The position numbers and the translations under genes were made by a program. A stretch of 64,000 nucleotides of DNA from Bugula neritina (Eukaryota > Bryozoa > Gymnolaemata > Cheilostomatida > Bugulidae), in assembly GCA_964035545.1 (NCBI GenBank), contig OZ037767.1:31915628-31979627 (forward strand), read 5' to 3'. The notes under the pieces are model-generated. The model saw nothing but the letters and a program-made list of their open reading frames with translations, did not search any database and had not been told where the DNA came from. Shown here piece after piece: positions 4,706 to 62,400 of the stretch (within the stretch, counting starts at the first letter, position 1; each line of letters starts with the position of its first letter).

Positions 4706-7127
4706 ATGTCAGAATATAGCATGTTTGAATCAAAGTTTATTGGAAGAAATGTTAGTAAAGTTAAAATTTGTGATCAGTCATTTGGTGCAGAATCATTTCT
4801 ATCAGGGACACACACTTCCCAGACGTTTGTTAGTGCTGTAAGTAGCTTTCCAAATTTAAATTAATCATTATCAATGTCAATATGAATATCAATTATCATA
4901 TATGATGAGTTCAATGCTGGTTTTCAAAATTTGATGTCATAAAGATAATATGTAATGTAAATAAAAAACTAATGATAAGTTATGACATTATACCTTTACC
5001 TATAGGCTAAGGGACCTCTGTCTATGACCATTACTTTTTATATTTTATTGTTATTTAATCTTTGATGGTGGAATATCTGATAAAGGCATGCTAAATCTTG
5101 ATGTTGGTGCAGCTATGTTTATGCTGGTAAACAGGACAATGAAATTATCTTGTGGTCAGTTGGTGTGGAACGATCTGAAGAAGATGTAGAAGAACCAACT
5201 ATGTCAAAGAGCAGTAGCATCTCACATGTTGGTGATGTAATGGGACTGGACGTAAGACTTGGCTAATAATATTGATAATAGATACATGTCAGCAGAGTAT
5301 TGTGTGCTGGAGATGACATCACAGGTATGTGTTGATGACATCACTTGTTTCTGTCCTCTGTTGATAGTATAAAGGTGGAATTGCTGCTGCCGCTAGCTCT
5401 AATGGCTCCGTCAGCATGTATAAACTTGACAAAATGAGTTCGTCAACTGGTTTAGAAGCCCTTCATAGTTGGTCAGCTTTACACTCCTTCAAATCAGGTA
5501 GGATGACTCCTACTATTGTGTGTTGTCAGCTTTACACTCCTTCAAATCAGGTAGGATGACTCCTACTATTGTGTGTTGTCAGCTTTACACTCCTTCAAAT
5601 CAGGTAGGATGACTCCTACTATTGTGTGTTGTCAGCTTTACACTCCTTCAAATCAGGTAGGATGACTCCTACTACTGTGTGTTGTCAGATCATGTATAGT
5701 ATACAAGGCTAGACTGGAATGTTTCTTATGATCTCAGGTAGAGAGTGTCCCTGTACAGACTTGTGTATTGAGGACAACATCGCCACCTGTGGTGAAGATG
5801 GATCAATACATATATTAGACATGACCAGACCAACACCTGTTAGATCACTTGGTAATATGTCTTCTGTACTTTCACTTCTGTACTTTCACTTCTGTACTTT
5901 CACTTTACCTCTGTACTTTCACTTCTGTACTTTCACTTTACCTCTACTTTAACTTTGCTCTGTACCTTTGCTGCCAGTATCCTGTGACAGCTGCACACTC
6001 AACTCTATCATATGGGTTAGCCCGCAGTCCGTGGCCGTAGTCAACACCTCCGGACAGCTCAAAGTCTTTGACATTCGACAAAGCGGAACTCAGCCTACTC
6101 AGAAATTCATCTTGTAAGTTAAATGACTTTTCTGCTGCTCTGCAAACACAAAAACCCTCTCTCAAGTGTTAGATGCAGATTCAATGTTGTTACAGATCTT
6201 CTGCAGATTTCAGTTCCCTCAACTGTCTGGATAAGCACCCGTCTCAGCACCACCTGGTGGCAACCGGCAGTTACAACGGAGTGCTCGGGATATACGACCT
6301 CCGACAAGACGGTGTTCCGGTGACCATACTTGAAGGTCACAGCGGCAGCTCCAGTGAGTGACCTTTAATCTTTGACCTTTGATACGTGCCCACTCTTTGG
6401 TGTTGGTGCAATGCCTTCACAGTTTGCATATTATACTCTGTAGTGTTATGTACTCTGTAGTATTATGTGGTGTTATATACTCTGTAGTGTTATATACTCT
6501 GTAGTGTTATATACTCTGTATGTTATATACTCTGTAGTGTTATATACTCTGTAGTATTATATACTCTGTAGTGTTATATACTCTGTAGTGTTATATACTC
6601 TGTAGTGTTATATACTCTGTAGTGTTATATACTCTGTAGTGTTATATACTCTGTAGTGTTATATACTCTGTAGTATTATATACTCTGTAGTATTATGTGG
6701 TGTTATATACTCTGTATGTCATATTGAATCTGATTTCTCCTTTAGTTTCTGACATCAAGTTCCACTGCCGCTCTCCGGACATGCTCTTCACCTCGGCCTA
6801 TGACGGAACCGTGTGGCAGTGGAATGGCGGGAAACCTCATCAAGGTCAGTATACGAGTATAAAGGGTGAGGCAACTCTACCATGCCTCTCGGTGCTGAGT
6901 TACCATCACTTCCTGTTGCAGGTGCCGGGGACAGCGGAGAGCAGAGCGTCTGGTTCCTGGCTGACGCTGTCAAACATAGGATAGAAGTCTCTGAGCTGAC
7001 TTCTCTCTACACTCAGGCCGGCAGCATGTCTGGATATCCTGTCAACTGTTTAGACGTCTGCAACAACATGTTGGTGTGTGGCGGCGATAACGGGGCTCTT
7101 CACTTGTTCTACGACCTCCATATATGA
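4706..7127 (+). CDS. nup43: Nucleoporin Nup43, WD40 beta-propeller
   Basis: Eight exons: 4706-4837, 5135-5251, 5368-5497, 5738-5851, 5978-6113, 6196-6353, 6746-6844 and 6922-7127, giving 280 residues in frame. Nup43 is a WD40 propeller of the Y-shaped Nup107-160 complex, a scaffold of the nuclear pore that also acts at kinetochores. Family landmarks recur in order: DNEIILWS in blade 1, CPCTDLC then GEDGSIHILD, SGQLKVFDIRQ, HPSQHHLVATG, YDLRQDGVPV, FTSAYDGTVWQWNGG and the C-terminal VNCLDVCNNMLVCGGDNGAL. The protein is about 100 residues shorter than the human one, mainly through shorter loops. The exon 2 acceptor was placed at 5134 because only this keeps phase 0 and removes an in-frame stop. 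The exon 3 donor lies in a four-copy 53-bp duplication. Confidence 0.9.
5472..5690 (+). repeat. 53-bp tandem duplication of the nup43 exon 3 / intron junction
   Basis: Four near-exact copies start at 5472, 5525, 5578 and 5631. Each unit contains the last 26 bases of exon 3 (ending CAAATCAG), the donor GTAGGA and about 21 bases of intron. The first donor (5498) is the annotated one; the other three are copies. Confidence 0.95.
6437..6715. repeat. 17-bp minisatellite in a nup43 intron
   Basis: About 16 copies of tgttatatactctgtag fill most of the intron between exons 6 and 7. Confidence 0.9.
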
Positions 7128-7307
7128 CCTCAACATTTGACCTTGACATCCGCACTGCGCTGACAACTTGTATATAGTTTACTTCTGTCAAAGCTTATCC
7201 CAACTCACACTTCGCACGTTGTATAATATTTGTGAGTCATCTACTGTAAGAATCTTATCAAATGCATTTGGTGGTAGGATGTAAGCCAAAGTTTTGAATA
7301 TATGTGC

Positions 7308-10513: not shown

Positions 10514-10688
10514 ATTCAAATATCATGTTGCCATAGTTACCAAATATACACTAGTTTTGTCTAAAAAATACTGTCTATGAGTTACAAGAAGGCTGCACAC
10601 ATCTAACACAATCACAACATGCAGTATTGGCGCAGAGATCTATGTAGTTAATAGAGGTGACAACTCCGAATACATCTATCCTTGAGGT

Positions 10689-13600
10689 CTACTTCAATCT
10701 CTTCAAGGCAGCACAGATCTTGCTCAAATCTCCTTTGATCTCACTGACAGCGAGAGCAATGAGTTGTTCATTGTCAAGGACCTCTACACTCTGTGTGTAC
10801 GGGTTGTACCGCAACTCAAACGGCCTATTTATGTGACTAGCAAAATCTCTAAAGCAGAAGAAATGTGTTTGGGGTCATAATACTTTTTATAACATGTATG
10901 GAATGTTATATAAATAGAATGAAAAAGTTAGGCATAATAATTTCGGCTTGGAGTTGGATTTCTGACATTTTTTGAAAAATATATTTTCTTGTTATTCAAT
11001 CCATAATCAAATTTGTGTTAAGTACCAAATTCTTTAGAAAGCAAATCTGAGATCGTCTCCCATGCTACTCAAAGTTGACACAAATTATATAAAAATGAGA
11101 AAAAACCTAACTAAAAATACAATAAATATAGTAGATAGGCAATAGTAGCAAGAGCAATAGTAGTAGTAGTAAGAGGTTTTTGGTAAATTTGAAAGTTTCC
11201 TCTCAAATAAAGTTAAGTAAGTAACAACGGCACACTGTTTGACTGAGACAACATAATAAATTGACTGAGACAACATATTAGTTTGACTGAGTCAAACAAT
11301 GACAAAGGCTAAAACTTTGAAAATGTTGCTCTAAAAAGTAAGACATTAAGTTCGAAAGATTTTAATAATATGCCTCTGTAGTCACAAGCTGAGGAGAGCG
11401 TGAATTGTTGTAAAAATACACCTACTGAGCCACTTATTTTAATTTGACTCGGTCACATCCTGTCAAAACTAAAAGACTTGACTCAGTCTCAGAATAGTGC
11501 AAAAAATCAGTGAGCTAAAATTCAGGGGTGCCCAACCTTTTCAGATTGAGGGCCACTATTTATATCCAGGTGGTGAGGTTTGAGCTGGCGGCCACGGCAT
11601 TAGTAATTCTCAAAGTAATTTATTCAAAATTCTTATTAATCATTACACAATTAAGCCCAATAGTCACTACTGGATGCTGTATGTAGCGTTTTGCAGCATG
11701 TGTATATAAATAAGGTGGTTTTTCACTCTAATTCATATGGGTGTGAAAAATAATTTTCTATGTTATGCCTTTGAGGGCTACCAAAATGTAGGCGGTGAGG
11801 GGGGCACATCTGACCCTGGGGCTGCCTGTTGGACAGCCCTGGGGTAAACAGATAGATTGCTGTGGTGGGTTCAAGTCTTCTCACCTCATGTGAGGAATAG
11901 AAAAGTTTAATATGACTTTAGAAAGCAGAATAAACTGGATTACTGTGGCTAAATGTTTTACGCAGGGAGGGGGGAGGTATGATACTTCAATTTGCCATGT
12001 CCAGTTAGAAGCTTGACATTTCTACTCATCAACCATTCCTTTGTGTAACCAGTTAGTTAGAAAAGGAAAGGGGGAGAAGAAAGGGGGAGAAGAGAGAGAG
12101 GGAGAGAGTGGGAGAGAGAAAGAGAGAGGGAGGGAGAGGGAGAGGGAGAGGGAGAGGGAGAGGGAGAGGGAGAGGGAGAGGGAGAGGGAGAGGGAGAGGG
12201 AGAGGGAGAGGGAGAGGGAGAGGGAGAGGGAGAGGGAGAGGGAGAGGGAGAGAGAGAGCGCTAGGGAGGGAGGGAGGGAGGGAGGGAGGGAGGGAGGGAG
12301 GGAGGGAGGGAGGGAGGGAGGGAGGGAGGGAGGGAGGGAGGGATAGAGAGGGGAGGATGGGGAAGGGTTAACAGAAGATATAGCAATCACATGGTATATA
12401 CAAGTATATATGATGCTATAGCTACATATTACAGGTGTATATTATATTATAGCTACATATTACAGGTGTATATTATATATTATAGCTACATATTACAGGT
12501 GTATATTATATATACCTCATTTGATTCTTAGCATTCTCAAAGCTACAGGTGTAATAGTAGGACTTCTGATACTCCGTTATCATACACTCCTGTTTACAGG
12601 TGAGCACCGGGTCAAACTTGAGCACCTCAGCTTTGGGGGTCAGTGCATACTACCAACATTAATCATTCACCACCTCAGCTTTACCTGCTATTCTTATTGT
12701 TATGTCCATTAAGTATTTATTCAATTTTATGTCAAAATTAAAACTCAATTTTGCAGAAGCTTTTTGTAGTTAAAACAAGTTTTGTTAATTTTAACTAGCA
12801 TTACAATACAATATAATACAAGATATGTAGGAATTATCTTCCCTAACACACAAAGCATAATTATAATAATAAGATATATAAAAACTAAACACTACCTGAA
12901 GCTCCCCAATCGAAGATAGTAGGCCCGCTCCATACACCTTCATTTTACCATTTTCCTCACACAGTCCAAACTCCACAGTGAAGAAATAGCACTGTAATAT
13001 ATAATATATGTGAAGCTATTATAATACTGTAATATAATATATTATACTATAATATATTATCCGATACAATATGACATATATTAGATTTTATCAAATCACA
13101 ATATAATTATTATAATTGCTGATAATACAATATCTGTTTGATGTTTGATGCACCCCATTAGGAGAGACGAGTGAGAGACAGGTAAGGGACAGGTGAGAGA
13201 CAGGTGAGCTAGGTAAGAGACAGTTGAGAGACAGGTGAGAGACTGGTATTACTAACTGTAGCCAGTTTCTCCACTTCATCTTCAGATGCCCCGAGAGAGG
13301 CCAACCCGATCTCCTGTGAGAATTGTGCAAAAGTTGGCTCAGCTAGTAACGGCATGTGACCTAGCAGCTCGTGACAGCAGTCCCTACAAGCAGTACGTGA
13401 CACTATGTGACACCATGTAACAGCAGGTGTATAGAGGGGTGATACAGAGTATAGTAACATGTGACTTACGGCTCAGGTGTGTACAGAGGGGTACTGTGAT
13501 GGCGAATGTATTGTGTACAGTGAAACACCCTGAAAGCCAGACCAGCCAGAAAATCCCGGGCAGATAAATATCCGGCCACTGGTCGCAAAGTGAAACCAGT

Positions 13601-16600
13601 TCTTTCTACAACAAGGCAGCATGTATATGACTGAATATTATTTCAGTACACAGAAGTAACAGGTAAGCACGCAGGTAATATTTTCATAACTCTATACTTT
13701 ACCTACCAACCATATTTATATATAAGTAATCATATAATCTGAAATAGAATCTAATATATTAATATGTCAATGTGTTTTAAACATACAACACATGCAGTTC
13801 ACACTGCAAATATGGTATCACTCCTTGCCAAACACTCACATAACTTGAATTTAATTGTCTTTTTAAATTTGTTTTAATAATACATCTCTTTGCAGCAATC
13901 AGCCTTTTCAACTGCATAAATAATGTAAAGTTCAACTGGTTTCGGAGTTACTCACCTTTTAGAAAGAGAGACACGTCCTCCAACTGCGGAATATTATCTT
14001 TTCTAAAACAAAGAGCAAACCTCTCTGTCAAACTGTTGACTTTCAAAGTTGTCTTCTCATGTTAATTTAAGCAGGGGAAGTTTTAACATAACATTATTAT
14101 GAAATCTCTATGCCATATACTATTATCAAAGTATATTATTATATTATTGAGGGCGGATGACCAGAGCCATCATTCTTTTTGTGTGCGAAGTAAACATTAT
14201 ATAATATTATGGTCTCCCACTAACTTCATGTGGGGGCAGAAAGTATGATGCAATAAGTAATTATATATCTATGTTATTATATCATGAGGCCCACATAGTA
14301 TTATATTCTAGTAATATATCAGCAGTGTATAATATTCTAGTAATATATCAGCAGTGTATTATATTCTAGTAGTATATCAGCATTGTATTATATTCTAGTA
14401 GTATATCAGCATTGTATTATATTCTAGTAATATATTAGCATTGTATTATATTAAAGTAATATAGCAAATTAGTCTCAAATTGTAATTTAAACTCAGGTTG
14501 GTTAGAAGAAAGACAACTCTAAGGGGAATTTAAAATTGTTATATAAAGTTTATATAAATGTTACTTTAAGTACTGTACAAATATTGGCAGTAGATTGACA
14601 CATCTTATCATTAAGGAGTGTTTAATACAAATACATACTGAGATAAGTATTATCATGTGATATATTGTAGAGGTATATCACATGACTATTTGTGTTATAC
14701 TCGGAGTTGGTTATGTAACAGGTCACGTGTATGTACATTACAGCATATCCTGTAGGTACAATAGTGTGTATGTACATTACAGCATATCCTGTAGGTACAA
14801 TAGTGTGTATGTACATTACAGCATATCCTGTAGGTACAATAGTGTGTATGTACATTACATCATATCCTGTAGGTACAATAGTGTGTATGTACATTACATC
14901 ATATCCTGTAGGTACAATAGTGTGTATGTACATTACAGCATATCCTGTAGGTACAATAGTGTGTATGTACATTACAGCATATCCTGTAGGTACAATAGTG
15001 TGTATGTACATTACAATGCATGCTGTAGGAACACGTAACTTAAACCTGTACCCACAACTATTTACTATCTTCACCTGTACCCCCAACTATTTACTACCCT
15101 CACCTGTACCCACAACTATTTACTACCCTCACCTGTACCCACAACTATTTACTACCCTCACCTGTACCCCCAACTATTTACTACCCTCACCTGTACCCCC
15201 AACTATTTACTACTCTCACTTGTACCCACAACTATTTACTACCCTCACCTGTACCCACAACTATTTACTACCCTCACCTGTACCCACAACTATTTACTAT
15301 CTTCACCTGCACCCCCAACTATTTACTACTCTCACCTGTACCCACAACTATTTACTACCCTCACCTGTACCCCCAACTATTTACTACTCTCACTTGTACC
15401 CACAACTATTTACTACCCTCACCTGTACCCACAACTATTTACTACCCTCACCTGTACCCACAACTATTTACTATCTTCACCTGCACCCCCAACTATTTAC
15501 TACTCTCACCTGTACCCACAACTATTTACTACCCTCACCTGTACCCACAACTATTTACTACCCTCACCTGTACCCACAACTATTTACTATCTTCACCTGC
15601 ACCCCCAACTATTTACTACTCTCACCTGTACCCACAACTATTTACTACCCTCACCTGTACCCACAACGTTTTTCAAGAAGAGGTAGATTTTGCAGAAACT
15701 CTTTGCATGCCACTTTAGGGTACAGCCTGGAAAGCTCCCCGAATATTACTCCCCTAACAAAGAAAGGAATTTATTGGAACTGAAAATATAGAAGTACTGC
15801 TAGTGCCTTATGTGAAGTACATGACTAACACAGTTGCAGCTAACCTAGGCTACTCATTATTTGGCTGGGGAAATGAATATTAAATAACAAAGAGAAGAAA
15901 TTTAACATTTTTGAGATCAATTGGCCTACATTGAGTAATATTTAAACCTTTTATGAATTTAAGTTTCATAAATTTGTTTATATTATATACATCTGGTATA
16001 AAGTTGACGCACTGTATAGCAGAAATTTATGAGTTTATAGACAAGCTAGTATATCTGTTAGATTACCAGGTAGCTACTTCTTCTTCTGTGTATTTTATTC
16101 TTGGAATAGGCTGTCCACTAAAACAGTCCAAAATATCACATTGGCAACTGAGTGACTCTAAAGTTACAGACAAGTAAGGTATGTCCAGTATTTCCAAACA
16201 CTGTGGTGAGTGAGACGAAAGATAAACAACTAACTGTTTATAGTTGAACGCCAACTCAGCGAAATACCGCCGTCTCAGTTTGTATGACTCATCCTGAAAA
16301 CCTGGGTGATCAGTTTGCAGTTCCTGTCCCACCATGAGAACTCGGTTGGATGATCGGTCAAGGTCACTGATCTTTCGAGGAAACCACGGAACTCGATACT
16401 CGCAATCTTCTGTAAAGAGAGTAATACATGAAGCAGCTTTACAGCACACAGCGTCACACTACACAGTGTCACAGCACGCAGTGTCACACTACACAGCGTC
16501 ACACTACACAGTGTTACATGACACAGTGTCACACTACACAGTGTCACAGCTTGCAGTGTCACAGCACACAGTGTCACACTACACAACAGTGTCACATGAC

Positions 16601-18425
16601 CAACAGTACACTTTATACACATACAATATACTTCATGCACACATACACATGTATACATATACTACTATTTTATACACACATATAATATACTTCATATCCA
16701 CATATACATACATATACTACTATTTTATACACATATATAATATTATACTTCATATACATATATAATATACTTCATACGCATATATAATATATTTCCAGCT
16801 AGCTCAATGCGCTTCCTTATAAATCCCATGGGCCATGATACAACTTAACAGGAAATCTTTACTTCAACTTTGATGGCTTAGCTATCATGTGCAGATGTGT
16901 TAGTTTAGTCTTATATGCTATTTATAGTGTAAACCTACGCTTTGCTTCATTAATAGTTTTAACAGTTTAAATTTGCAATTCATTTGATTTTTTTCTAAGA
17001 AATCTTTGTATTTGCAGAAGAGTCTATAATCCTAATTAAACATCAAGTCAAGTGGGTGGTTTACATATATCTCACTTCATTATGAGATCAACACGTACAG
17101 CTTTAGTATAAATATAGAAGAGAGTGTTAGACTGAGATCTTACCATTTATAGTAGCAATAGGCAAGCGGGGGCTATGAGGCTCCTCATCACCTAGCTGAA
17201 AGTTCTCAACTTGATTTTTGAGAGCTGAGACTAGGGTTTCTAGATTTGAGTTTTCCACTTCAATTTCAGAGAAGAACTCGCACATGTGACGACTTCCGTT
17301 AAAGGATCGTCTAGACTCGATGTGGATGACGTTGACGTTATTATCCTGTGCAGACAAATCAGCGTTATATCATATGATAACTTATACAGCTATACTGTAT
17401 ATATCAACATGTGGTAACATAGTCATATATACAGTACAACGTGATGATGCCACACTAGGAACATATGATAATATCTTAGCAATGTTGTTTCACCATGAAA
17501 ATATGACTTTAGCTGAGAACTTAATACCTGGAAAAGTTTGAGGGCTTTAGCGAGGCCCCCAATCTCATCTTTTAGTGTGAATATAATGCATCGTGTGTTT
17601 CCAAAGTGCAGATCTTCTTCACTCATCAACTTTGGCAGCCTTTTTATTCGACTCTAAGATATATGAAATATTATATAAATACTTGCTATAACATATGCTA
17701 TACATGCATATACATCACAACTATATTATATACATTATATATATTATATACACTATATACTAGATATATATGCAACACATAATATACACATGCATTTTAC
17801 ATAAAAGTGCCCCAATTGTTATCCAAATGTTTTGATGACTTAACTTCACCAAATTTTTATGTAAACCGTATGTTTCAAGATCAATAAAATTAATAAATGA
17901 TTTTATATTTAAAATACATGTAGTATAATATAGCATATATAATGTAGTATAAGGGTGTTGTATGCATAAATATTCTAAAATATTGAGCACAAAATGAAAA
18001 TAAAAATAATTTAATATAAATATCATAATTAATAATTATATTATCTAGTAAATCTTTTAATTGATATTTATATTATATAATAAATATCCTGATTATTATT
18101 GATGTTATATATAGTAAATACCCTGAAGAATAATTTTATTCTATAATAAATATTCTAATTATAAATATTTGTGTTATATAATAAATATCTTGGAAAGCAT
18201 GAATAGAAAAATGCTCTCAACTTGCTCTAAATAGACTTTGCTCTAACTCAAAAAGAGTTTTAATTAAGGGCACATAATACACCCCACCTCTAAATTGGCG
18301 AGAGCACAATCTCCGGCATTGATGCTACTCTCGCTTCGAAATGGCCTTGAGCCTCTCGACCTTTGATAGCATTTCACTTTCTCAGAAGCTCTTCCCAGCA
18401 TTTCCTCTAAACAGCCTTTTTCCAT
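10689..18425 (-). CDS. tph: Tryptophan 5-hydroxylase (serotonin synthesis)
   Basis: Twelve minus-strand exons: 18425-18288, 17653-17528, 17345-17144, 16409-16235, 16117-16067, 15753-15655, 14002-13956, 13605-13470, 13383-13257, 12991-12896, 12649-12516 and 10848-10689. Together they give 496 residues, the usual size for the family. The enzyme hydroxylates tryptophan using O2 and tetrahydrobiopterin, the limiting step to serotonin. An ACT-type regulatory domain (about 65-135; [18 protein letters not shown], then VIHIESR) precedes the catalytic domain, which opens with [12 protein letters not shown]. The iron ligands are present: His329 and His334 (HELLGH) and Glu374 (FFTVEFGL), with the family spacing of 5 and 40. 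TPH rather than PAH/TH is indicated by [39 protein letters not shown] and the tail [13 protein letters not shown]. The C-terminal helix (about 480-496) fits the tetramer coiled coil. Introns carry many tandem arrays and a probable hAT remnant. Confidence 0.93.
11523..11841. mobile_element. Probable hAT-type MITE remnant in the last tph intron
   Basis: The left end caggggtgcccaacc and the right end gttggacagccctg are imperfect inverted repeats (about 11 of 14 bases) of the kind found at hAT termini. There is about 290 bp of non-coding DNA between them. I see no matching 8-bp target duplication, so it is old or my ends are off by a few bases. Confidence 0.45.
12062..12352. repeat. 290-bp polypurine tract, (GGGAGA)n then (GGGA)n
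   Basis: The tract is almost pure G/A on the plus strand: a mixed GA block, about 22 GGGAGA units, then about 20 GGGA units. It lies in the last tph intron, so the transcript is pyrimidine-rich (CTCTCC/CCCT). Confidence 0.95.
12405..12515. repeat. ~33-bp repeat next to the tph exon 11 donor
   Basis: Three copies of ctacatattacaggtgtata with tata spacers abut the minus-strand donor at 12515. Confidence 0.75.
14720..15016. repeat. 39-bp tandem repeat in the tph exon 6-7 intron
   Basis: Seven to eight copies of a 39-bp unit (tacattacagcatatcctg, then taggtacaatagtgtgtatg), nearly identical apart from one g/t variant. Confidence 0.92.
15040..15667 (-). repeat. 29-bp tandem array containing the tph exon 6 donor
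   Basis: About 21 copies with a 29-bp period. On the transcribed strand each unit reads GTTGTGGGTACAG then GTGAGGGTAGTAAATA. The first 13 bases are the end of exon 6 and the rest is the donor plus intron start, so the true donor at 15654 is followed by some 20 copies of itself. Confidence 0.93.
16435..16600. repeat. ~10-20-bp cacagtgtcacactacacag repeat in a tph intron
   Basis: About 15 degenerate copies just upstream (in the tph sense) of exon 4. Spurious reading frames cross it. Confidence 0.8.
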
Positions 18426-20048: not shown

Positions 20049-20360
<312 letters not shown>

Positions 20361-23357: not shown

Positions 23358-23798
23358 GGCATTTACAAGTATGAGCCTGCTCTTCATAGTGGAAGAGGGT
23401 ATGAAGATATGGGCAGACAGAGATCTGGTGTCACACAATACATAATACAAACTGACAGGAGCACCTGCCCATCTAGTTTATGAACCACCTGCTCACCAAT
23501 GCCATCTCGCTGACATGCTTGGACTGCCTGTGGTTGGCTGACTGTTATTTTCAGAGTTATGATGACATTCCATTCTATTTGTTTGTATGCTGACCTCAGG
23601 TGATGACTATTTAATAGTCCTGGAATGACAGATAAATACCAATAGACAGATGGAAACTGGACAAAGGCAAGACATTCTCTGTGTTGTGATAAGACTGGGC
23701 TATGACCAGCAGGAGACATGAAAGTGTTTTGTTGTAATACAATTAATTGTTGTGATGATTCTATTGGTTTATGATGAGCTTGATGACCTGTGAGCAGA
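23358..23798. other. Upstream flank of the small membrane-protein gene
   Basis: Should hold its promoter. A 111-codon minus-strand frame at 23384-23719 has no recognisable features and is not called. Confidence 0.4.
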
Positions 23799-33665: not shown

Positions 33666-34239
33666 GTTATTGACGACAAACAAACGTTTATTGATTTCAG
33701 GTAATTAGTTTTTGCTAACGTATTGACATTTTCGTAATAAAGTAAAACTTGAAACATATTATTTCAGATTTGTATAGCTGAGGTGATAAACTGATGCCTT
33801 CTGCTGTGACATCACTGTGAATTTGCTGACCGCTATTACGCGATAATAGTAGGTATATTATTGCAGGTGATAGTATAATATTACAGGTGATGTACTGCAG
33901 TAATCTATTTACAACAGGAATCTTTACTTGAGAAGGGATGAAACCCAACAGCGACTGACCAACTAACATTAAAACAAAAAGTGAGTTGCATTATAATATA
34001 CTATATATAATATATTATAATATATTATATATAATACATTATAATATAACATATTATATATTATAGTATATTATAAAATATTGTAATATACTATATAATA
34101 TGATATATTATATTTGATATATTATAATATAATACATTAAATTTTAAAATTGCTGTAAGAGTTGTTTGGGTGATGTACTACGTGCAGGGTGATTGCATGT
34201 GAAGTGAAAGCAGTTCCACTCTAATAGTAATATACTGCC

Positions 34240-34608
34240 CACTCAGTGCTGCTTCTATCTCACACAGGTCCACTCAGTGCTGCTACTATCTTATACAGGT
34301 CCACTCAGTGCTACTTCTATCTTACACAGGTCCACTCAGTGCTGCTTCTATCTTACACAGGTTTACTCAGTGCTGCTTCTATCTTACACAGGTTTACTCA
34401 GTGCTGCTTCTATCTCACACCGGTCCACACAGTGCTGCTTCTATCTCACACAGGTCCACTCAGTGCTGCTTCTATCTCACACAGGTCCACTCAGTGCTGC
34501 TTCTATCTCATACAGGTCCAGTCAGTGCTGCTTCTATCTCATACAGGTTTACTCAGTGCTGCTTCTATCTCATACAGGTTTACTCAGTGCTGCTTCTATC
34601 TTACACAG
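34240..34608 (+). repeat. 31-bp tandem array made of splice acceptors
   Basis: About twelve copies of gtccactcagtgctgcttct followed by atcttacacag. The last copy supplies the polypyrimidine tract and AG (34607-34608) of the first coding exon of the death-domain gene, and that exon itself begins GTCCACT like every unit. All copies are therefore equivalent 3' splice sites. Confidence 0.93.
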
Positions 34609-34615
34609 GTCCACT

Positions 34616-40600: not shown

Positions 40601-40727
40601 ATGGTGGTATACGAGACATATAAGGTGTATGAAATATATGCCATTGGAGTTAAATTTGACTATAGCCTTTTGCAACAGTTGACTTACTGTTGCAATTTTA
40701 TAAATTTCAAAATTAGTGAAAATGAGC

Positions 40728-40781
<54 letters not shown>

Positions 40782-41153
40782 AAAATCTGAAATTTGTAGA
40801 ATATTGTAATCAAACAAATATAGTGTTGTAGCAATGACGTACTTGTACTATAAAATTTTATTGTATATTAACAACATAAACGCCGCGATGTTATGTAATT
40901 TTAGGCTTCTGACTTACTGCCTGTGATAAAGCAGTTAGGAGAGAATGATCTTCTAGATGCTATAGACAAAGTGGTGAACCCGCCTCGACTAAAGACACCG
41001 GTCATAGAACACATTCCAACCTTCTTGGACAAGAAACTAGAAAAATATTACCACCAGGTTTCCCGATATGACTTCCTACGACACAGTCACGGCAAGAAAA
41101 GCCAAACGCCTGCGCTTCCACCGATTGGGCGGAAAACTATCAAAGGCAACTAG
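34616..41153 (+). CDS. Coiled-coil protein with a C-terminal death domain
   Basis: Ten coding exons, 34616-34801, 36862-37064, 37449-37632, 37915-38109, 38889-39035, 39208-39343, 39539-39737, 39913-40034, 40350-40564 and 40905-41153, give 611 residues with every phase closing. Residues 1-255 are helical and charged without a domain I recognise, and include an acidic run (DDDDDDY, about 88-94). Residues about 245-420 are long heptad-rich coiled coils (ESEINDLQSSKDSLQQK; EYEKLNKRVKVLNRSY). Residues about 458-555 fit the death-domain fold: LDRVFTLLSQTLGSKWIDMY, ELPFF, the central SLERWRRFHTRAK and LLPVIKQLGENDLLDAIDK. The tail is basic. Death domains assemble receptor, adaptor or kinase complexes in immunity and cell death, so this is probably an adaptor or scaffold; the partner is unknown. 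Three of its donors and its first acceptor sit in tandem arrays. Confidence 0.72.
34945..35090. repeat. ~17-bp repeat, ataagtctaggggtgta
   Basis: About eight degenerate copies in the first coding intron of the death-domain gene. Confidence 0.8.
35985..36335. repeat. ~35-bp purine-rich minisatellite
   Basis: About ten copies of aggggagagtgtaggagaga plus gtgtaggtgatggt in the same intron. Strongly G/A-biased on the coding strand. Confidence 0.9.
37049..37440 (+). repeat. 35-bp array copying the exon 2 / donor junction of the death-domain gene
   Basis: About eleven copies with a 35-bp period. Each carries GAACTGATACTA (the end of the exon closing at 37064) followed by a/cag and TAAGAG. Each copy thus has a GTAAG donor in the original context. 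Confidence 0.93.
37625..37755 (+). repeat. 31-bp repeat starting at the exon 3 donor of the death-domain gene
   Basis: Four copies (donor-like GTAAGT or GTGAGT at 37633, 37664, 37695 and 37726). Each includes AGTGC(G/A), the last bases of the exon, before the donor. Confidence 0.9.
38535..38675. repeat. ~10-18-bp actatactatagcac repeat
   Basis: About ten degenerate copies in a death-domain gene intron. Confidence 0.8.
40025..40275 (+). repeat. 28-bp array copying the exon 8 / donor junction of the death-domain gene
   Basis: Nine copies with an exact 28-bp period. Each reads GCAACTCCAG (last 10 bases of the exon ending 40034) then GTGGGTACCGTATAACTA. The last copy changes the donor to GTGAGC. 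Confidence 0.95.
40731..40779. repeat. (TA)n microsatellite
   Basis: About 24 TA dinucleotides in the last intron of the death-domain gene. Confidence 0.95.
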
Positions 41154-43676: not shown

Positions 43677-43695
43677 AAAAACTATATGTCTTGGC

Positions 43696-50395: not shown

Positions 50396-50425
50396 TCTTT
50401 AGTCTGACTTTGTAGCTGTAAGAAA

Positions 50426-53400
50426 ATGCCTGAAAAAGTAGCTTTTCATGTGGTACATGCTTCTGGTCAAGATGAGAACTTCAGGGCAGCCGAGTTGAAC
50501 ACTCACAGTCCGCTGACGCGGGGCTGGTCGTCTTCCAGGTGAGCTTTCTGATGTCTGTCTAATAATATATTAATAGAATGGTAATATAATATAATAATAT
50601 GATGATGATATAATATACTGATAAAATAGTAATATAATATACTAATAGAATGGTAATATAATATACTGATAGAATAGTAATATAATATACTAATAGAATG
50701 GTAATATAATACACTGATAGAATAGTAATATAGTATACTGATAGAATAGTAATATAATATACTGATAGAATAGTAATATAATATACTAATAGAATGGTTA
50801 CAGGTTTTGTCTGTATCCCCAAGATATTGTCATCCAGCTGGAGAAAAGATGCCGGCTCAGGAAAATCCAAGTTTTGTCACATCAATATCTAATAGGTAGG
50901 AGATCACCTCTGGTATTAGTAGATGTTACGTATATTGTATGAGTATATATTACACGTATTAGTAGATGTTACGTATATTGTGTGAGTATATATTACACGT
51001 ATTAATAGAGGTTACGTATATTGTATGAGTATATATTACACGTATTAATAGAGGTTACGTATATTGTATGAGTATATATTACACGTAGTAATAGATGTTG
51101 CCTATATTGTATGAAATTATAGCCAGTAGAGTGGAGTTTTTTGTTGGAGACATTCCCCCTGACATCCCGGTAAATCTCCAGAACTCCCGCTACACCAGGC
51201 TAGGGTAAGTTCCATTTCCTGTTTCCTGTCTAGTACAGCTACTACTCTCAGTCTATGGCCTGAGAAACTGTCATCAGCTCAAAGAAAGTTTATTATACAG
51301 AGTATTGAATACTGGCAACCGGTACTGATGCTATTTGTGTACGGTAGATACGTGGCGCTCTCCAGCAATGAACAGACGGATTACAAAGCCCGGGAACTCA
51401 AATCTGTGCATGTGGATGCTGTGGGCATTTACTTGAAGCTCGTCATACATAAGAATCATGTGAACAAATGTAACCTGTACAACCAGGTAAGGTATAGTAT
51501 ACTGAGAGAGTAAGGTATAGTATACTGAGAGAGTAAGGTATAGTATACTGAGAGAGTGAGGTATAGTATACTGAGAGAGTAAGGTATAGTATACTGAGAG
51601 AGTAAGGTATAGTATACTGAGAGAGTAAGGTATAGTATACTGAGAGAGTGAGGTATAGTATACTGAGAGAGTAAGGTGTAGTATACTGAGAGAGTAAGGT
51701 ATAGTATACTGAGAGAGTAAGGTATAGTATACTGAGAGAGTAAGGTATAGTATACTGAGAGAGTAAGGTATAGTATACTGAGAGAGTAAGGTATAGTATA
51801 CTGAGAGAGTAAGGTATAGTATACTGAGAGAGTAAGGTATAGTATACTGAGAGAGTGAGGTATAGTATACTGAGAGAGTAAGGTACAGTATACTGAGAGA
51901 GTAAGGTACAGTATACTGAGAGAGTAAGGTATAGTATACTGAGAGAGTAAGGTATAGTATACTGAGAGAGTAAGGTACAGTATACTGAGAGAGTAAGGTA
52001 CAGTATACTGAGAGAGTAAGGTACAGTATACTGAGAGAGTAAGGTATAGTATACTGAGAGAGTAAGGTATAGTATACTGAGAGAGTGAGGTATAGTATAC
52101 TGAGAGAGTAAGGTATAGTATACTGAGAGAGTAAGGTATAGTATACTGAGAGAGTAAGGTATAGTATACTGAGAGAGTAAGGTATAGTATACTGAGAGAG
52201 TAAGGTATAGTATACTGAGAGAGTAAGGTATAGTATACTGAGAGAGTAAGGTATAGTATACTGAGAGAGTAAGGTATAGTATACTGAGAGAGTAAGGTAT
52301 AGTATACTGAGAGAGTAAGGTATAGTATACTGAGAGAGTAAGGTATAGTATACTGAGAGAGTAAGGTATAGTATACTGAGAGAGTAAGGTATAGTATACT
52401 GAGAGAGTAAGGTATAGTATACTGAGAGAGTAAGGTATAGTATACTGAGAGAGTAAGGTATAGTATACTGAGAGAGTAAGGTATAGTATACTGAGAGAGT
52501 AAGGTATAGTATACTGAGAGAGTAAGGTATAGTATACTGAGAGAGTAAGGTATAGTATACTGAGAGAGTAAGGTATAGTATACTGAGAGAGTAAGGTATA
52601 GTATACTGAGAGAGTAAGATATAGTATACTGAGAGAGTAAGGTATAGTATACTGAGAGAGTAAGGTATAGTATACTGAGAGAGTAAGGTATAGTATACTG
52701 AGAGAGTAAGGTATAGTATACTGAGAGAGTAAGGTATAGTATACTGAGAGAGTAAGGTATAGTATACTGAGAGAGTAAGGTATAGTATACTGAGAGAGTA
52801 AGGTATAGTATACTGAGAGAGTAAGGTATAGTATACTGAGAGAGTAAGGTATAGTATACTGAGAGAGTAAGGTATAGTATACTGAGAGAGTAAGGTGGAG
52901 TATACTGAGAGAGTAAGGTATAGTATACTGAGAGAGTAAGGTATAGTATACTGAGAGAGTAAATGCACACAGCTGCTATTTGTTGATCCACTCAATTGAA
53001 ACGTATTGATTTATGAAAGTATATATTTTGTAGGTTGGGGTGATAGCAATCAACGTAATTGGTGATGATTTAAACAAGATAAACCAGGTGAGTGACTCCA
53101 ACATCTACAGTGCTGTGAAAAAGTTTAAGGACGCCTCCCTGTTTTCCATAATAGCAATGTTCCAAGCTAATTTTAAGACATAACAAATGCATTTCCATAG
53201 GCATGATGCCTATCAAACTGATCCTTAAGATCTCCTTATCTCATTTATATAAATCAGTACTGTCTCTTTTCACTTTCTTCCAAAATATCGGTGAAATAAT
53301 GAGATACTATGCATATATGGGAATCATTCAATGTTCTCCCAATTTGTGTGTACTGTAGGATATCAGAATATTTTACTTGAAACATAGAAAATTTTTTTAT

Positions 53401-56400
53401 GTGATTTGTTCTACACATTATAGCAGCATTGCAACACACAGTGCTTTAAATTTTAGTATCAATGTTTTGTTGGCCAGCCTTTATTCTCAATCACTAGTCG
53501 GCAGCGACGAGGCATCGACACGTACAGCTTCTCCAACTCGTTTTCAGTCACAACATGATGCTATGCATGAATTACAGGCTTTATGAGTGTCACCTTAGTT
53601 GTTGGCTTCTGTGAAGAGACTATTTTAGCCATTCTTGGCCATGAATTTTTATTGGGTTCAAGTCCCGGCTTTGGGCTGGCCAGTTAAGCGTTGAGACCCT
53701 CTGCTTTTTCATTCACTCTTTAACAGTTTTTGCCCAATGGCATGGTGCATTGTCATCTTCAAATATGTTAATTTTATTTAAAAAGAAATATTTTTATGAT
53801 TGGAAGAAGTTTAGCATTGAGATTCTCCATATATTTTTGGGCATTGACATCATTCCAGGGCAATTACTGAGTCGACCTACACTTTTTCATGTTATACAAC
53901 CCCAGAACACAACACTGATAGGGTGCTTAATTGTTTGAAGAATACATTAGGGGTTATATTTCTCATACTGGTATCTTCTAACAAAACAGTTTCCAGCATG
54001 ATTGTTCACATTAAATGTAGATTAATCTGAAATAATTACTTTTTTCTAATCATTCACTGTCTAACTACCACGCTCCTTGGCCTACTGTAGCCGGTTTTTT
54101 CGCTACTTCTCGGTTAGTAGAGGCTTCCTTCTTGCTTTGCAGACACATAGACCATGGCTCAGCAGTCTTCGCCTTATTAGCGATGTCGAAGCTGTTGTTA
54201 CTGTTGATTCTGATCATTCTTTGCCAACTCAGGACTTGTTTTATGGCAATCTTTCTTGCTGATCCTAATGAAAACCTTGTCATCTCCGAGTGCGCTTATT
54301 CTTGGTCGTCCACTTCCAGGTCGATCTGCTAGACTGCCAGTCTCCATGAACTTCTTGATAATTTGATGTACAGTTGTCTTTGTTTTGCCAACCTTTTCAG
54401 ATATTTTCCTAATTGAAAAACCTTCATTGTGCAAAAAAATTATTACAAACCTTGCTTTTGAAGTAAGATTTACAGCTCTCATTTTGTCTATGCGCAGCAC
54501 CTAAGTGGACACCATGTAAAAGCTTACAACTAAATGACAGATTTTAAATTATGAAGGAAAGTCATACTTTATAGTATCATGATGCCATGTACAGAGTAAA
54601 ATTTCACTGTTTAGCCTTTTGTGGTTATCAGAAGCTATAAACTTTGGAAACATAAAAACACAGGAGTTGCGCTTCCCTAGCTGCTTGTATAGTTAGCCCG
54701 AAAATAGGTAAAAAACATTTTAGCAGTAGGAATTTATAAGGTGGAAATTGTAGTGCACATTCTAAGGGTCCTTTTGGTATATAGAACTTGCAGGAAAATA
54801 CTAAGAACTTTCAAGAAATGCCTATTAAACAAGATACATAGAAATTTCTGCAAGCGTCCTTAAACTTTTTCACAGCACTGTATGTTGTCTTGTAGCTGTC
54901 AAATAGGTTACTCTACTCTTTCTCTTGCTTCAGCACAGCTCTAGAGTTGTCTCCTCTGATATACATGAGTTTGTTTATATTCTGTATTCAGGATGACGAC
55001 ACAGCTGTGAGCACACAAAAACCAGACTTTATCTCACCTCTAGACGACCTTGCCTTTGACATGTATCAAGATACTGAAGTTGCGCAAATCATACGAAAGT
55101 TAGAGAAGAAAAAACAAGATTCTGTTCTTGGTAAGAATCTGTCAGCCGTTTCTACTTACACATTCAGCTCTACTAGTAGTAGTATTACTCTAGTACCACT
55201 AGTAGTAGTATTACTCTAGTACTACTAGTAGTAGTATTACTCTAGTACCACTAGTAGTAGTATTACTCTAGTACTATTAGTAGTAGTATTACTCTAGTAC
55301 TACTCTTAGTAGTATTACTCTAGTATCACTAGTAGTAGTATTACTTTAGTACTACTGGTAGTACTATTGAACTCTATCCAATTGTTAAACATTTTAGGGG
55401 AGAAATATGACTTTGCAAAGAAACTGAAACAAGTAATAGTTGATCTGCAAAAGGTTTGTACAACTTTAAGCTCTCTGATGGTTTCCTTATTGTCTTCTCC
55501 TGTTTGAGAGGACAACTTTGAGCTGAGATGTAACTTGCTGATTGCAGGTGGGAGAGAAGTTAGGCAAGTATGAAGTGGATAAGAGACAGGCTGTAGAGAA
55601 AGAGGATTACGACAAAGCAAAGTTAAAGAAAGTACAGATGGAGGAGTATAGACTACAGATGTACAAGGCTTTGAATATACCTGCCTTGTTACAGGAGCAA
55701 AGTGTAAGTCATTGCATATGCTTGTTGCTAAGGTAAACATTTTTCAGTGGGGTTAATAAATGAAATACTCAATGCTGAACATGATTTCACTGTTTTTCAG
55801 CCGATAGCCAATCAGAGATCTCCCCGGATAGACCCGCCTCCAGCTCGACTGAAAGAGATTCCGAGTCCACCCGTACCGAAAGATTCCGTAAACCGGCCAA
55901 GTCAGCCGAGTCCCTTACCTGCCGTATCAAACAGGTGACTTGTTTACTACCTGATATATACCTGTTTATTCTACTCTACCTTATATACTACCTGTATACT
56001 CTACCTTATATACTTTACTCTATATATTCTGTATATTCTGTATACTCTGTACACTCTGTATACTCTGTGTACTCTGTATACTCTGTGTACTCTGCTCTGT
56101 TTGGATTGTATAACCAACTAACACACGGTGTGACTAACCAGCTTGTTGGTTTCATAATAAGACCATCTCTGGATTCCAGGGGGTCCCCTCAACAAAGCCC
56201 TAGAACCTATGCTGACGAGAGCTCAGCTTTAGGGAAGGTTCGCTTTGAAGACCCCAATGATGACAGGCCGTTGCCAACGCAGCAGTAAGTTCGTACTCAC
56301 ACCCGATTGGCTACTGCTCAGCTATGCCCCTACGTCTGATTGGCTAGTGCCACACAGCTTCTGATTGCTCTATAGCCTGTGTTTTGGTTTGCTGTCAACT

Positions 56401-59400
56401 GCTATGATCATATTTTGGTTGTTGGCTCACCCCCCCCCCCTACACTCACTCACTGCCCCCTGATCTTCAGCCATCCACCCCACTCAGCTCGAATTAGTCT
56501 TTCTACAGCTATTGTATGGTTTGCTGACACCTCTGGAGTTGCCGATGATAAACAACTCAGTGCATCAGTATTCACCTCCATAAACCCTCCTGAGTGAATA
56601 ATGTAGTGTAACCATACTAATATACTCTGTTACAGTAGCAGAGAGCCTGTGGTCCACAACTCCCCTAGCCCACGTCACGTTGACAATGTAGACAGAGAGG
56701 AGAGGGCGTTACCAGCTCCCAAGCAATCGTGAGTTTTGATACAAGTTTTGCTGTAGATATTGCCTGTACTATTCTACTCTATATTAATGTTTTGAGGTGA
56801 TAATTGTGTATTGCTATTCTAGGCAGTAAACGGTGTACCAGTCCTGTATTTCTGTGTGTGTGTGGGGAGGGGAGAGGGGTGTGTTTGGAAGGGGGGAGAG
56901 GGGTGTGTGTGGAGGGGAGGAGAGGGGGGTGTGTGTGGAGGGGAGGGGAGAGGGGTGTGTGTGGAGGGGAGAGGAGAGTGGTATGTTTGGAGGGGGAGAG
57001 GGGTGTGTGTGGAGGGGAGAGGGGTGTGTTTGGAGGGGGAGAGGGGTGTGTGTGGAGGGGAGAGGGGTGTGTGTGGAGGGGAGGGGAAGAGAGGGTGTGT
57101 GTGGAGGGGGAGGGGAAGAGGGGTGTGTGTGGAGGGGGAGAGAGGGGTGTGTGTGGAGGGGGAGAGAGGGGTGTGGTCATCGCACAATGGTTAAGGATGT
57201 CAACCAAGTTCTGAGATTTGAATCTAACATATTTTTTTGAGTTTCGTATTCATTGTTGATATGACAAGACGTCTGCTGGTTTTACAATGACTTCTAAACT
57301 GTACCATTTATAGATACAATCCACCAGCAGATGATGAGCTGGAGAGTACAGCTGGTGGACAAACAGACAGATCTGAAGTTGCCGGGAGCACAATGTCGGA
57401 GAAAGATCTACGGGAAGCTGCTTCTGTGATAGACATATTTGGTTTACCTCTGGTAGGCTGATTGACATCATTGTAGCTAATAAATCTCTTCTGTGTTGCA
57501 AATATCACATAGTACCAGGGGTACATGTTTGGTATTGTGATGTTAGTAATATAATCAGTTTGATAAAGTGAGTTACTGAACGAGTTGTGTGAGCGAGTGA
57601 CGGTGAGTGAGTGACAGTGAAGGAGTGACAGTGAAGGAGTTAGATATCTAGTCTGGTAACTCTGTCTCTCAGGTGCAGAAAGTTTACGCCAGGAATTGGG
57701 GCAGCAAAGAGGAAAGTATGACGGATCTGATAGAGCAACTCTCGTCATTCAGCGGAGAAAAAGAGGAAGCCAAGGCTATGATGAAGGCCGCCACATTCCT
57801 CATACAAAAACTGCTCAAGGACTCAGTCTATCTCGTTTTCAAAGCTACAATCGGCGCTCTCAAATATCTGCTGACAGAATTTGTACCCAAACACAGGTGA
57901 GTCATCCATGTCAAAGTCGTATTCATCAGGTCAAGGTCAAGTGTGCTTATAGTCCTTGTAGTCTGCTTATACAGTGTAAATATAGCTGCTGCCTGCTGTG
58001 TGTATTTTTTGTGAGTGTACAGCTAATATTGTTGATGGCAATCCTCAGGTGCAAATGAAATGATGCCTACCCCCCCCCCCCCTATTACTAAACAGTATAC
58101 AGCCTACCTCCCCCTCTACCTCTCCCCACTCTAGACAGTACACAGCCTACCTCCCCCCACTCTAGACAGTAGACACTGTAACAGCTGATATATTGTGTCT
58201 GTATTATATGGTGTGCTTTAGGATACCCAAACATGATATTCACTACGCCTGTGAGAAAACCTTACCTGGGATAATGCACAAGACAGGTGATACTGTAAGT
58301 ATGTTAACATGTTATTGTATGACCCTATCTAGGTCTTAGCTACTGTATTCTATCTTCTATCTGATCTAGTAAATATGTGTAATATATACTAGCTGATATA
58401 TAGTAATATATACTGGCTGATAGAGTAATATATACTAGCTGATAGAGTAATATATACTAGCTGATAGAGTAATATATACTAGCTGATAGAGTAATATATA
58501 CTAGCTGATATAGTAATATATACTAGCTGATAGAGTAATATATACTAGCTGATATAGTAATATATACTAGCTGATATAGTAATATATACCAGTTGATATA
58601 GTAATATATACTAGCTGATATATAGTAATATATACTAGCTGATATAGTAATATATACTAACTGATATAGTAATATATACTAGCTGATATAGTAATATATA
58701 CTAACTGATATAGTAATATATACTAGCTGATATATAGTAATATATACTAGGCTGATATATAGTAATATATACTAGCTGATATAGTAATATATACCAGCTG
58801 ATATAGTAATATATACTAGCTGATATATAGTAATATATACTAGCTGATATGTGTATCGCTGACTGTGCCCTGGTAATATTTAGGCTGCCAGAACAAGAAC
58901 AGATGCGAAGGCACAGATTATTGAGATGTCTCAGTATCCGGAGTTGAGTGTAAGTAGTATTAGTACTGTATGGGTACACATTGACAGTAAGTAGTCTTAG
59001 TACTGTATGGGTACACATTGACAGTAAGTAGTATTAGTGCTGCTGGTTGTGTACAAGATTTATCAACTACTTGTGTTTTCCAGGGACCTAAGGTGAGTAA
59101 ATGTTTTTGAATGTCCATGTGTTTACAGTATTTAGTGTGCACACTTAGGTGATAAGCATAGGCTTATTAACTCTGTTAGATGTGCTTATATGACATAGAT
59201 GTAGTGGTTGATATACATACTAGATGTAATTACATGCTTGTAGTGCATGTAAGGAATAGATTGTGCTTACTCGATGTAGATGTAGCTTATAGTATATGCT
59301 TCTAGTATATGCTTAAAGTATATGCTTATAGTATATGCTTATAGTATATGCTTATAGTATATGCTTATAGTATATGCTTATAGTATATGCTTATAGTATA

Positions 59401-62400
59401 TGCTTATAGTATATGCTTATAGCCTTGTACCAGTGAGATTTGGCATCCTAGTGCAGTTTGTATAACATGTAGTTGGCACCCTCAGAGTTATCTCCTCATT
59501 CCCCATTATCTTCTCTGTAATATCCTGTGCCATCTCATCTCATACGTCTGTATTCATACGCCTGTATTCATACGCCTGTATTCATACGCCTGTATTCATA
59601 CGCCTGTATTCATCGTCTGTATTCATACGTCTGTATTCATACGCCTGTATTCATACGTCTGTATTCATACGTCTGTGTTTATACGTCTGTATTCATACGT
59701 CTGTATTCATACGTCTGTGTTTATACGTCTGTATTCATACGTCTGTATTCATACGTCTGTGTATTGTTTTGTCTCATCCATATATAATAATGAGTCTGAA
59801 AGTTGAACAACTCCTAAACTAACAAACTCTTTTAATACCTCCTATCTGCTGGCAGTTTATTAGTATGATAGACTAGCACTAGTCCTGTTGTATGCAGGCA
59901 GTTGTTATACATAGAAACAAGGTGATGTGCATCTACCTGCTATATTTTTAGTCAACACATGTAGTCCCTCTCTTCTGTGTTCGGCCATTCAAGTTGAACT
60001 CAGCACCAAGATTGGCACAGAGCCACGTGGAGGTCATAGATGAGCTGTATTCTACCCTACCAGCTAGTGACGGGTATGTCAGTCTATATAATACTGCTAT
60101 ATACTAGTACACTACCAGCTAGTGACGGGTATGTCAGTCTATATAATACTGCTATATACTAGTACACTACCAGCTAGTGACGGGTATGTCAGTCTATATA
60201 ATACAGCTATATACTAGTACACTACCAGCTAGGGATGGGTATGTCAGTCTATATAATACTGCTATATACTTGTACACTACCAGCTAGTGACGGGTATGTC
60301 AGTCTATATAATACTGCTATATACTAGTACACTACCAGCTAGTGACGGGTATGTCAGTCTATATAATACTGCTATATACTAGTACACTACCAGCTAGTGA
60401 CGGGTATGTCAGTCTATATAATACAGCTATATACTAGTACACTACCAGCTAGGGACGGGTATGTCAGTCTATATAATACTGCTATATACTAGTACACTAC
60501 CAGCTAGTGACGGGTATGTCAGTCTATATAATACTGCTATATACTAGTACACTACCAGCTAGTAAAGACTGAATGAAACGAGTTAACATACTTGCAGTGG
60601 GCTCAATGTGGACAACATGATGAAGTTCTGTGTCAACGCCCTCCGCCATCACTCTGGTCAGGTCAGAACCCCCACAGAGAATCTTATCATCAAGTTATAC
60701 AAACAGCACAGGCACGCAGTCAAGAGTTATCTTCCCCCTGATGATGAGAAAACTAGGCGGAATACTCTCTACCGGCAGTTGTTCGAAGCATTTGATGTTA
60801 TAGATGGGAAGCCTAGCAAGAGGGACCTAGAGGTGTGTGTATACCATGTGCTAAAGTATAGTACTATATGATATGATATAATACCGTATAGTATGATGTA
60901 ATACAGTATAGTATGATACACAGTATAGTATGATGTAATACAGTATAGTATGATGTAATACAGTATAGTATGATGTAATACAGTATAGTATGATGTAATA
61001 CAGTATAGTATGATATAATACCGTATAGTATGATGTAATACAGTATAGTATAATATAGTCCTGCATTATTTAAACTCTTCTATTACATTATCCAGATGAA
61101 CTACACATATGTAAGTAGAGGCGTGGTTTGCTCTATATGATCTGTTATATGATTACGTGACTAGTAATATACTTTTCAATATATTATGGTATTTCATTTT
61201 CAACATATTATATGTTCTGCACGTTGACAACTCAGTCACTAAATGATGATTTTACTGAGTACTGTGTACTGGTCATAGTTACTCACTGCACAGTGAGTTG
61301 TATTAGTTATAGTCATAGTATATGCTCTGCTATTTCAATATTATGAATATAGTAATATACAATATTCTGAATATAGTAATATACAATATTTTATACGCTT
61401 TCATAGACTTTATTTGCATCTTCCTATCTATTCATATTCACGGCTGTCAGTACTAGTCGTAGGGTTACTGTCGGTACTAGTCGTAGAGTTACTGTCAGTA
61501 CTAGTCGTAGAGTTACTGTCAGTACTAGTCGTAGAGTTACTGTCAGTACTAGTCGTAGAGTTACTGTCGGTACTAGTCGTAGAGTTACTGTCAGTACTAG
61601 TCGTAGAGTTACTGTCAGTACTAGTCGTAGAGTTACTGTCAGTACTAGTCGTAGAGTTACTGTCAGTACTAGTCGTAGAGTTACTGTCAGTACTAGTCGT
61701 AGGGTTACTGTCAGTACTAGTCGTAGGGTTACTGTCGGTACTAGTCGTAGAGTTACTGTCGGTACTAGTCGTAGAGTTACTGTCAGTACTAGTCGTAGAG
61801 TTACTGTCAGTACTAGTCGTAGAGTTACTGTCAGTACTAGTCGTAGAGTTACTGTCAGTACTAGTCGTAGGGTTACTGTCGGTACTAGTCGTAGAGTTAC
61901 TGTCAGTACTAGTCGTAGAGTTACTGTCAGTACTAGTCGTAGAGTTACTGTTAGTACTAGTCGTAGAGTTACTGGTAGTACTAGTTGTAGGGTTACTGTC
62001 AGTACTAGTCGTAGAGTTACTGTCAGTACTAGTCGTAGAGTTACTGTCAGTACTAGTCGTAGAGTTACTGTCAGTACTAGTCGTAGAGTTACTATCAGTA
62101 CTAGTCGTAGAGTTACTGGTGGCTGATGCCTCCCTCTGCTGACTTTAGAAGCAGCGTCAAACTGAAGAGGCAGCAAAGAAGGCAGAAGTGGAGGAGCTGC
62201 AGCAGCAGATTGCTCAGATGAAAGCTCTCCAGTCCAACATTGGCGGCGGCCAGAAGAAGAATAAGGTGCTCCATAACCTGTAATCTGATTGGCTAGTTAT
62301 CATTTTATTTTCAACTAGCATTAATATAGCCGCTCTGCGGGATTGTTAGTAGTTGTGGCTTCATTTCTTACTCAGCTGTAGAGTTTCAGCTAAGTTAATC

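Follow-up and report, generated by a model that had tools for sequence, protein, structure and literature searches.

How cells choose between adjacent, identical 5′ splice sites has long been asked, mostly with artificial genes that contain two sites. In the DNA analyzed here, a stretch of 64,000 nucleotides from the bryozoan Bugula neritina (contig OZ037767.1, positions 31,915,628 to 31,979,627; hereafter the window), the question arises in natural form: several conserved genes carry minisatellites that place 3 to 65 near-identical donors in a row, and the reading frames reveal which of these donors is required. How did such arrays come to lie on splice donors, and how do the genes remain readable? 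The original prediction proposed a local duplication process acting at exon-intron junctions, which might allow imprecise donor choice, buffer splice-site mutation or lengthen introns neutrally. We think it likely that the arrays are minisatellites of the kind called mirages in amphioxus, born without targeting in a repeat-rich region near the chromosome end, filtered by selection and spliced at the upstream site.

Donor-spanning arrays in four genes

The window lies 0.44-0.50 Mb from the end of a 32.4 Mb contig in a genome of 215.8 Mb. Tandem arrays were called with Tandem Repeats Finder (TRF), and splice junctions were obtained from reading the sequence together with curated gene models. A self-trained gene finder gave drafts but fused genes, and the window models were therefore curated by hand. 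This yielded seven genes, namely: nup43, tph, a coiled-coil gene, ENPP, cep104, an LDLa-type gene and a YccV-like gene, the last two being named by eye. All seven models are open, with no stop or a terminal stop only, and several have provisional 5′ ends. Between their coding exons lie 52 introns, of which 31 bear arrays (49 arrays in total). Donor-spanning arrays are found in four of these genes:

5113..7127, plus strand: nup43, model of 7 exons, open throughout, 5′ end provisional
10686..17653, minus strand: tph (aromatic amino acid hydroxylase), 11 exons, open throughout, 5′ end provisional
34616..41153, plus strand: coiled-coil gene, 10 exons, open throughout
50416..63731, plus strand: cep104, 22 exons, open throughout

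The coiled-coil gene had been labelled a death-domain gene, a name we drop, as the protein has no Pfam match at E≤0.001 and its bryozoan relative is named CEP250-like. That relative, from the cheilostome bryozoan Watersipora subatra, is 70% identical over 99% of the length; CEP104 is 72% identical to its counterpart in the same species. Weak relatives of the coiled-coil protein (26-27% identity) are also seen in Ruditapes and Tubulanus. Two candidate exons of cep104 were rejected: a 9-nt microexon within intron 58950-59951, which is absent from relatives, and a longer exon 4, following comparison with relatives. The tph gene includes a 117-nt array-free intron, which, if read through, would leave 40 residues unaligned to the homologue.

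The eight arrays that repeat the 5′ splice donor GT in context are as follows:

5472..5688, plus strand: nup43; 53-bp units, 4.1 copies; unit holds 26 nt of exon end and donor CAG|GTAGGA; intron 5498-5737 (TRF, frame test)
15044..15667, minus strand: tph; 29-bp units, 21.5 copies; 13 nt of exon end and donor CAG|GTGAGG; intron 15654 down to 14003
37048..37437, plus strand: coiled-coil gene; 35-bp units, 11.1 copies; 17 nt of exon end and donor AAA|GTAAGG; intron 37065-37448
37627..37751, plus strand: coiled-coil gene; 31-bp units, 4 copies; 6 nt of exon end and donor GCG|GTAAGT; intron 37633-37914
40025..40282, plus strand: coiled-coil gene; 28-bp units, 9.2 copies; 10 nt of exon end and donor CAG|GTGGGT; intron 40035-40349
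51487..52962, plus strand: cep104; 23-bp units, 64.2 copies; begins at GT, 0 nt of exon; intron 51487-53033
58950..59042, plus strand: cep104; 37-bp units, 2.5 copies; begins at GT of donor AGT|GTAAGT, 0 nt of exon; intron 58950-59951
60053..60563, plus strand: cep104; 55-bp units, 9.3 copies; 21 nt of exon end and donor CGG|GTATGT; intron 60074-60597

Thus nup43 and tph have one such array each, and the coiled-coil gene and cep104 three each. Every array has 2 to 64 further GT-bearing copies, 119 downstream copies over all eight when the period is allowed to slip by 2 bases, in keeping with the predicted 3 to over 60 donors per exon. That units of 23-55 bp carry the donor is borne out by TRF, the sequence and the open curated frames, and six of the eight arrays include 6-26 nt of exon. 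The two that begin exactly at GT (51487 and 58950) have no clear exon end in the unit; at 51487, the copies read AGA|GTAAGG against a true exon end of CAG|GTAAGG. None of the eight unit lengths is divisible by three. The acceptor lies outside the array in all eight cases, 11 to 1041 nt past the array end. Donor arrays are therefore recurrent, as predicted, but in four genes rather than at least five; this count covers the seven modelled genes, with 18-22.7 kb and other unmodelled parts lying outside it.

Introner elements are repeated intron sequences with splice sites, of which similar copies are dispersed at many genomic sites. Here, the units differ from one array to another, and two of the eight arrays were searched genome-wide without any dispersed close copy being found (other matches show 64-73% identity). 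A single transposed family was accordingly rejected, and the births appear to be independent, as had been proposed.

Other arrays come close to a junction without spanning it. The cep104 arrays 55170 and 55947 begin 39 and 12 nt, respectively, inside their introns, and the ENPP array 46252 begins 13 nt inside an intron that is outside the 52 counted. Array 35981-36306 sits within the coiled-coil gene intron 34802-36861.

The donor copy required by the reading frame

At all eight arrays, the first donor copy keeps the frame open. In contrast, the later copies tested (2 to 4, or 2 to 3 at 58950) lead to a stop in 23 of 23 cases. Homologous proteins agree with the first copy. TPH2 (PDB 4v06) aligns gaplessly across the tph junction CGYR|KDNIPQ, while the cep104 junction at 60074, SDG|GLNVDN, is crossed without gaps by alignments to the CEP104 of PDB 5lph and to Watersipora CEP104. 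The cep104 junction at 51487, YNQ|VGVIAIN, is the same in Watersipora CEP104 (P0125). Weaker support comes from nup43, whose junction is crossed with gaps by the alignment to the NUP43 PDB entry.

For the coiled-coil gene, a 98% identical protein (P0121) encoded on a 2178-bp contig is joined precisely as first-copy splicing predicts at each of the three donor arrays. The contig is too short to hold the introns, and P0121 is thus probably derived from a transcript. The junction ELILK|YLQQ (37065) is as in P0121 and aligns gaplessly to Watersipora P0122; DDMSA|NTREL (37633) is found in P0121; and TP|DD (40035) is found in both P0121 and P0122. These data speak against imprecise donor choice, since only the first copy is open among those tested and P0121 shows no other junction at its three arrays. 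That the mRNA is unchanged rests on the reading frames and homologues; from these, we infer a rule by which the upstream site is spliced first.

Donors, acceptors and chance placement

For a genome sample, we used 20 random 10-kb stretches (200 kb), in which 61 introns, each flanked by two gene-finder exons with scores of 6 or more, hold 13 arrays. Two further sample introns (L022 and L010) were added by hand on account of their arrays, while the count excludes L021 as well as the initial models of L010 and L022. As L022 and L010 were picked for their arrays, the sample is biased towards donors, and the window is taken as the main figure.

Acceptor-spanning arrays number 0 among the 52 window introns between coding exons and 0 among the 61 gene-finder introns of the sample. 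The ratio of donor- to acceptor-spanning arrays between coding exons is therefore 8:0 in the window (sign test p=0.008) and 11:0 with the less certain sample added (p=0.001). The one acceptor candidate lies ahead of the coding exons:

34239..34615, plus strand: acceptor-like array, coiled-coil gene; 31-bp units, 12 copies; pyrimidine tract and ACAG|GT; adjoins the ATG at 34616

The AG is intact in 11 of the 12 copies. No ATG occurs within the array, a weak detail in that the shuffled unit is without ATG in 72% of cases anyway. The array had been described as the gene's first acceptor; its acceptor-like form is confirmed, and its presumed role as a putative 5′-UTR or trans-splice acceptor derives from the motif. 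Counting it, the ratios become 8:1 (p=0.039) in the window and 11:1 (p=0.006) with the sample.

Two nulls were used to ask how many arrays should fall on splice sites by chance. In the first, one unit-length founding segment per array was placed at random over the intron collapsed to one copy per array; in the second, the same placement was made over present-day intron lengths. The collapsed null gives 5.86 donor- and 5.86 acceptor-spanning arrays for the window, compared with the 8 and 0 seen (P=0.21 for at least 8 donors and P=0.0012 for 0 acceptors). Revising the gene models barely moved these tallies: 50 introns and 47 arrays, with 5.81 and 2.63 expected under the collapsed and present-day nulls, became 52 and 49, with 5.86 and 2.67. 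Introns with several arrays grew stepwise, and so the true expectation probably lies between the two nulls. This puts any enrichment of donors somewhere between 1.4- and 3-fold; a modest one may exist. The donor-acceptor asymmetry is the firmer signal, being the same under either null.

These observations would be accounted for if segments of ~10-55 bp were duplicated and expanded throughout the introns. The density of arrays is observed, whereas slippage or unequal exchange as its cause is conjectural. A founding segment that happened to cover a donor would put a donor in each unit; with the spliceosome committing to the first, upstream donor, the mRNA would be unchanged and only the intron would grow. 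A segment over a coding acceptor, on the other hand, would place a complete acceptor ahead of the genuine one; by the same rule it would be used and break the frame, and arrays spanning acceptors between coding exons would be purged by selection. The presumed 5′-UTR acceptor array might be allowed, as extra sequence without ATG would do little harm. An upstream-first, or first-come, rule thus accounts for both the donor and the acceptor halves of the pattern. Exon definition, in which the shortest exon is favoured, fits the donors, but among acceptors it would prefer the downstream one. If the asymmetry holds genome-wide, it would be a direct readout of the upstream-first rule from surviving mutations. 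The arrays would also show a route for harmless intron growth, consistent with the neutral lengthening suggested at the outset.

The strongest competing explanation is that duplication is targeted to junctions and starts at donors, set off, for instance, by transcription-linked breaks or R-loops where exon meets intron. Arrays on donors and on no acceptor between coding exons are what it would give, and with present-day lengths the sample raises the donor count to 11 against 3.55 expected (P=0.0005). Selection alone, however, also predicts the asymmetry, and the donor excess is gone once introns are collapsed, which is the better of the two nulls and leaves targeting unneeded as the main explanation. 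Furthermore, 53 of the 64 intronic arrays in the window and sample span no splice site, with similar numbers of them lying within 15 nt of a donor and of an acceptor (8 and 5, respectively). We therefore regard targeting as unlikely. The proposed duplication at junctions retains the 3-fold excess under present-day lengths in its favour, and is set against arrays that occur throughout introns and a donor count close to chance in collapsed ones. A bolder version is also doubtful, namely that donors are hot spots of minisatellite birth via damage linked to transcription or splicing. The arrays would then be the trace of mutation directed at 5′ splice sites, and the genome would be running natural competitions between splice sites, won every time by the furthest upstream of up to 65 near-equal donors.

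Several points weigh against untargeted birth filtered by selection. Under present-day lengths, 2.67 donor arrays are expected against the 8 seen, a 3-fold excess (P=0.0037), and the acceptor deficit, for which 2.67 are likewise expected, weakens to P=0.060. Only 1 of the 13 arrays in the 61 gene-finder introns spans a donor, and it is a borderline case in L016 that begins 3 nt after GT. All counts are small, with a single window and 200 kb as their source. The first-copy rule is drawn from proteins and reading frames, and in-vitro work with two identical donors often finds the intron-proximal one preferred, contrary to the reading frames here. Lastly, the 5′-UTR acceptor is a candidate identified by its motif.

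Other explanations, related systems and array density

A function for the donor copies would be an alternative to neutrality: they might act as landing sites for the U1 small nuclear ribonucleoprotein that keep AT-rich introns from being polyadenylated prematurely, or as a reserve of spare donors against mutation. GT is kept in 112 of the 114 downstream copies of six arrays, and the consensus donors of the copies look good. We compared the variation of donor bases with that of the rest of the unit by rotation, using the six arrays with enough copies (five from the window and one from the sample; three window arrays had too few). The donor bases carry 28 changes as against 20.9 expected, and GT alone 3 as against 4.7. 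They thus vary like the rest of the unit, which speaks for neutrality and against the buffering originally envisaged, although homogenisation within arrays weakens the test. Spare donors would be of no help given that the later copies tested lead to stops, and 44 of the 52 introns have no such array. A function is accordingly very improbable.

Repeats across splice junctions have precedents. The amphioxus Adh3 and globin genes have tandem repeats across exon-intron boundaries, termed mirages, which affect both boundaries and place splice signals in many units, reportedly with splicing undisturbed (PMC3087553). Mirages are reportedly also unstable in length, among alleles or within one body. 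The Bugula arrays match mirages in sequence features, with boundary-spanning repeats and AG/GT signals in many units, as the downstream GT-bearing copies attest. They differ in belonging to a bryozoan, in reaching up to 64 further donor copies, in having been counted against a null and, whereas amphioxus mirages lie at both boundaries, in lying only at donors between coding exons, apart from the one presumed 5′-UTR acceptor array. In the bryozoan genome literature searched, including the available portions of PMC13326412 and PMC7576161, no such arrays are named. As far as these searches show, novelty lies in the phylum, in how many copies there are, in the comparison of counts with a null and in the bias towards donors.

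The amphioxus authors proposed for mirages a model related to that of Rogers, in which introns are gained through tandem duplication of a segment with splice signals (PMC3087553). Cases of such duplication exist in ATP2A1 and fission yeast, along with potato RdRp (PMC4974935), and the units described here hold AG|GT or similar at the donor. In the window, however, the acceptors beyond the array ends mean that the arrays did not supply both splice sites, as the Rogers model demands. In contrast to ATP2A1, fission yeast and potato RdRp, the first donor is kept, and existing introns grow while none arise. We give intron gain hardly any weight. Wrongly expanded repeats in the assembly, though long arrays are hard to assemble, are more improbable still, because many distinct units stand in register with exon ends and open frames and a protein tyrosine phosphatase gene on a different contig repeats the pattern; errors in copy number may nevertheless be present.

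In that phosphatase gene, which is identified by a Pfam match, the donor-spanning array (L022:1786-2225) has a 45-bp unit with 35 exonic nt, and the intron splits the active-site loop HC|SAGVGRT. Splicing at its first copy leaves the frame open, whereas copies 2 to 4 lead to stops. L010 has a donor-spanning array with a 31-bp unit in a gene whose product looks, by eye, to combine a protease-associated domain with a RING domain; no Pfam match was obtained for the part searched. These two cases are more illustration than test. A further sample intron, L016:9042-9275, consists almost wholly of a 36-bp array, which runs from the second to the penultimate base and leaves the donor GT and the acceptor AG unrepeated.

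The surroundings of the donor arrays are rich in repeats. TRF arrays cover 32% of the window (31% for periods of at least 7), while the 20 random stretches, for periods of at least 7, have a median cover of 2.9% (mean 5.7%, range 0 to 34%). Array density falls with distance from the contig end (Spearman -0.50, p=0.025, n=20; -0.57, p=0.007 with the window included). The stretch closest to a contig end reaches 34%, yet 19% and 10% are still seen at 3.4 and 4.1 Mb from an end. Human minisatellites (variable number tandem repeats) are likewise enriched subtelomerically (PMC7608644); the concentration toward chromosome ends is shared, with 21 stretches as the evidence here, but the human units are GC-rich and most of those in the window AT-rich.

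Other repeats were seen in the window. On the minus strand at 1578-1814, coding minisatellites with units of 27 and 42 bp occur in a threonine-rich stretch of the LDLa-type exon; both units are multiples of three, as expected from selection on coding repeats. At 23794-32482, an element that by eye is BEL/Pao-like lies inside a single 23-bp array, whose unit (rotated) is present on both flanks. Its two ends have identical listed open frames, and the element thus seems to have been inserted into the array recently. In a large cep104 intron, on the minus strand at 54201-54500, there is a fragment that we take to resemble a Tc1/mariner-type transposase. Finally, the ENPP exon 43666-44427 has a 95% identical relative (P0001) in JGI and Logan contigs, so that sequence from a close relative or another individual exists and could show variation in array length.

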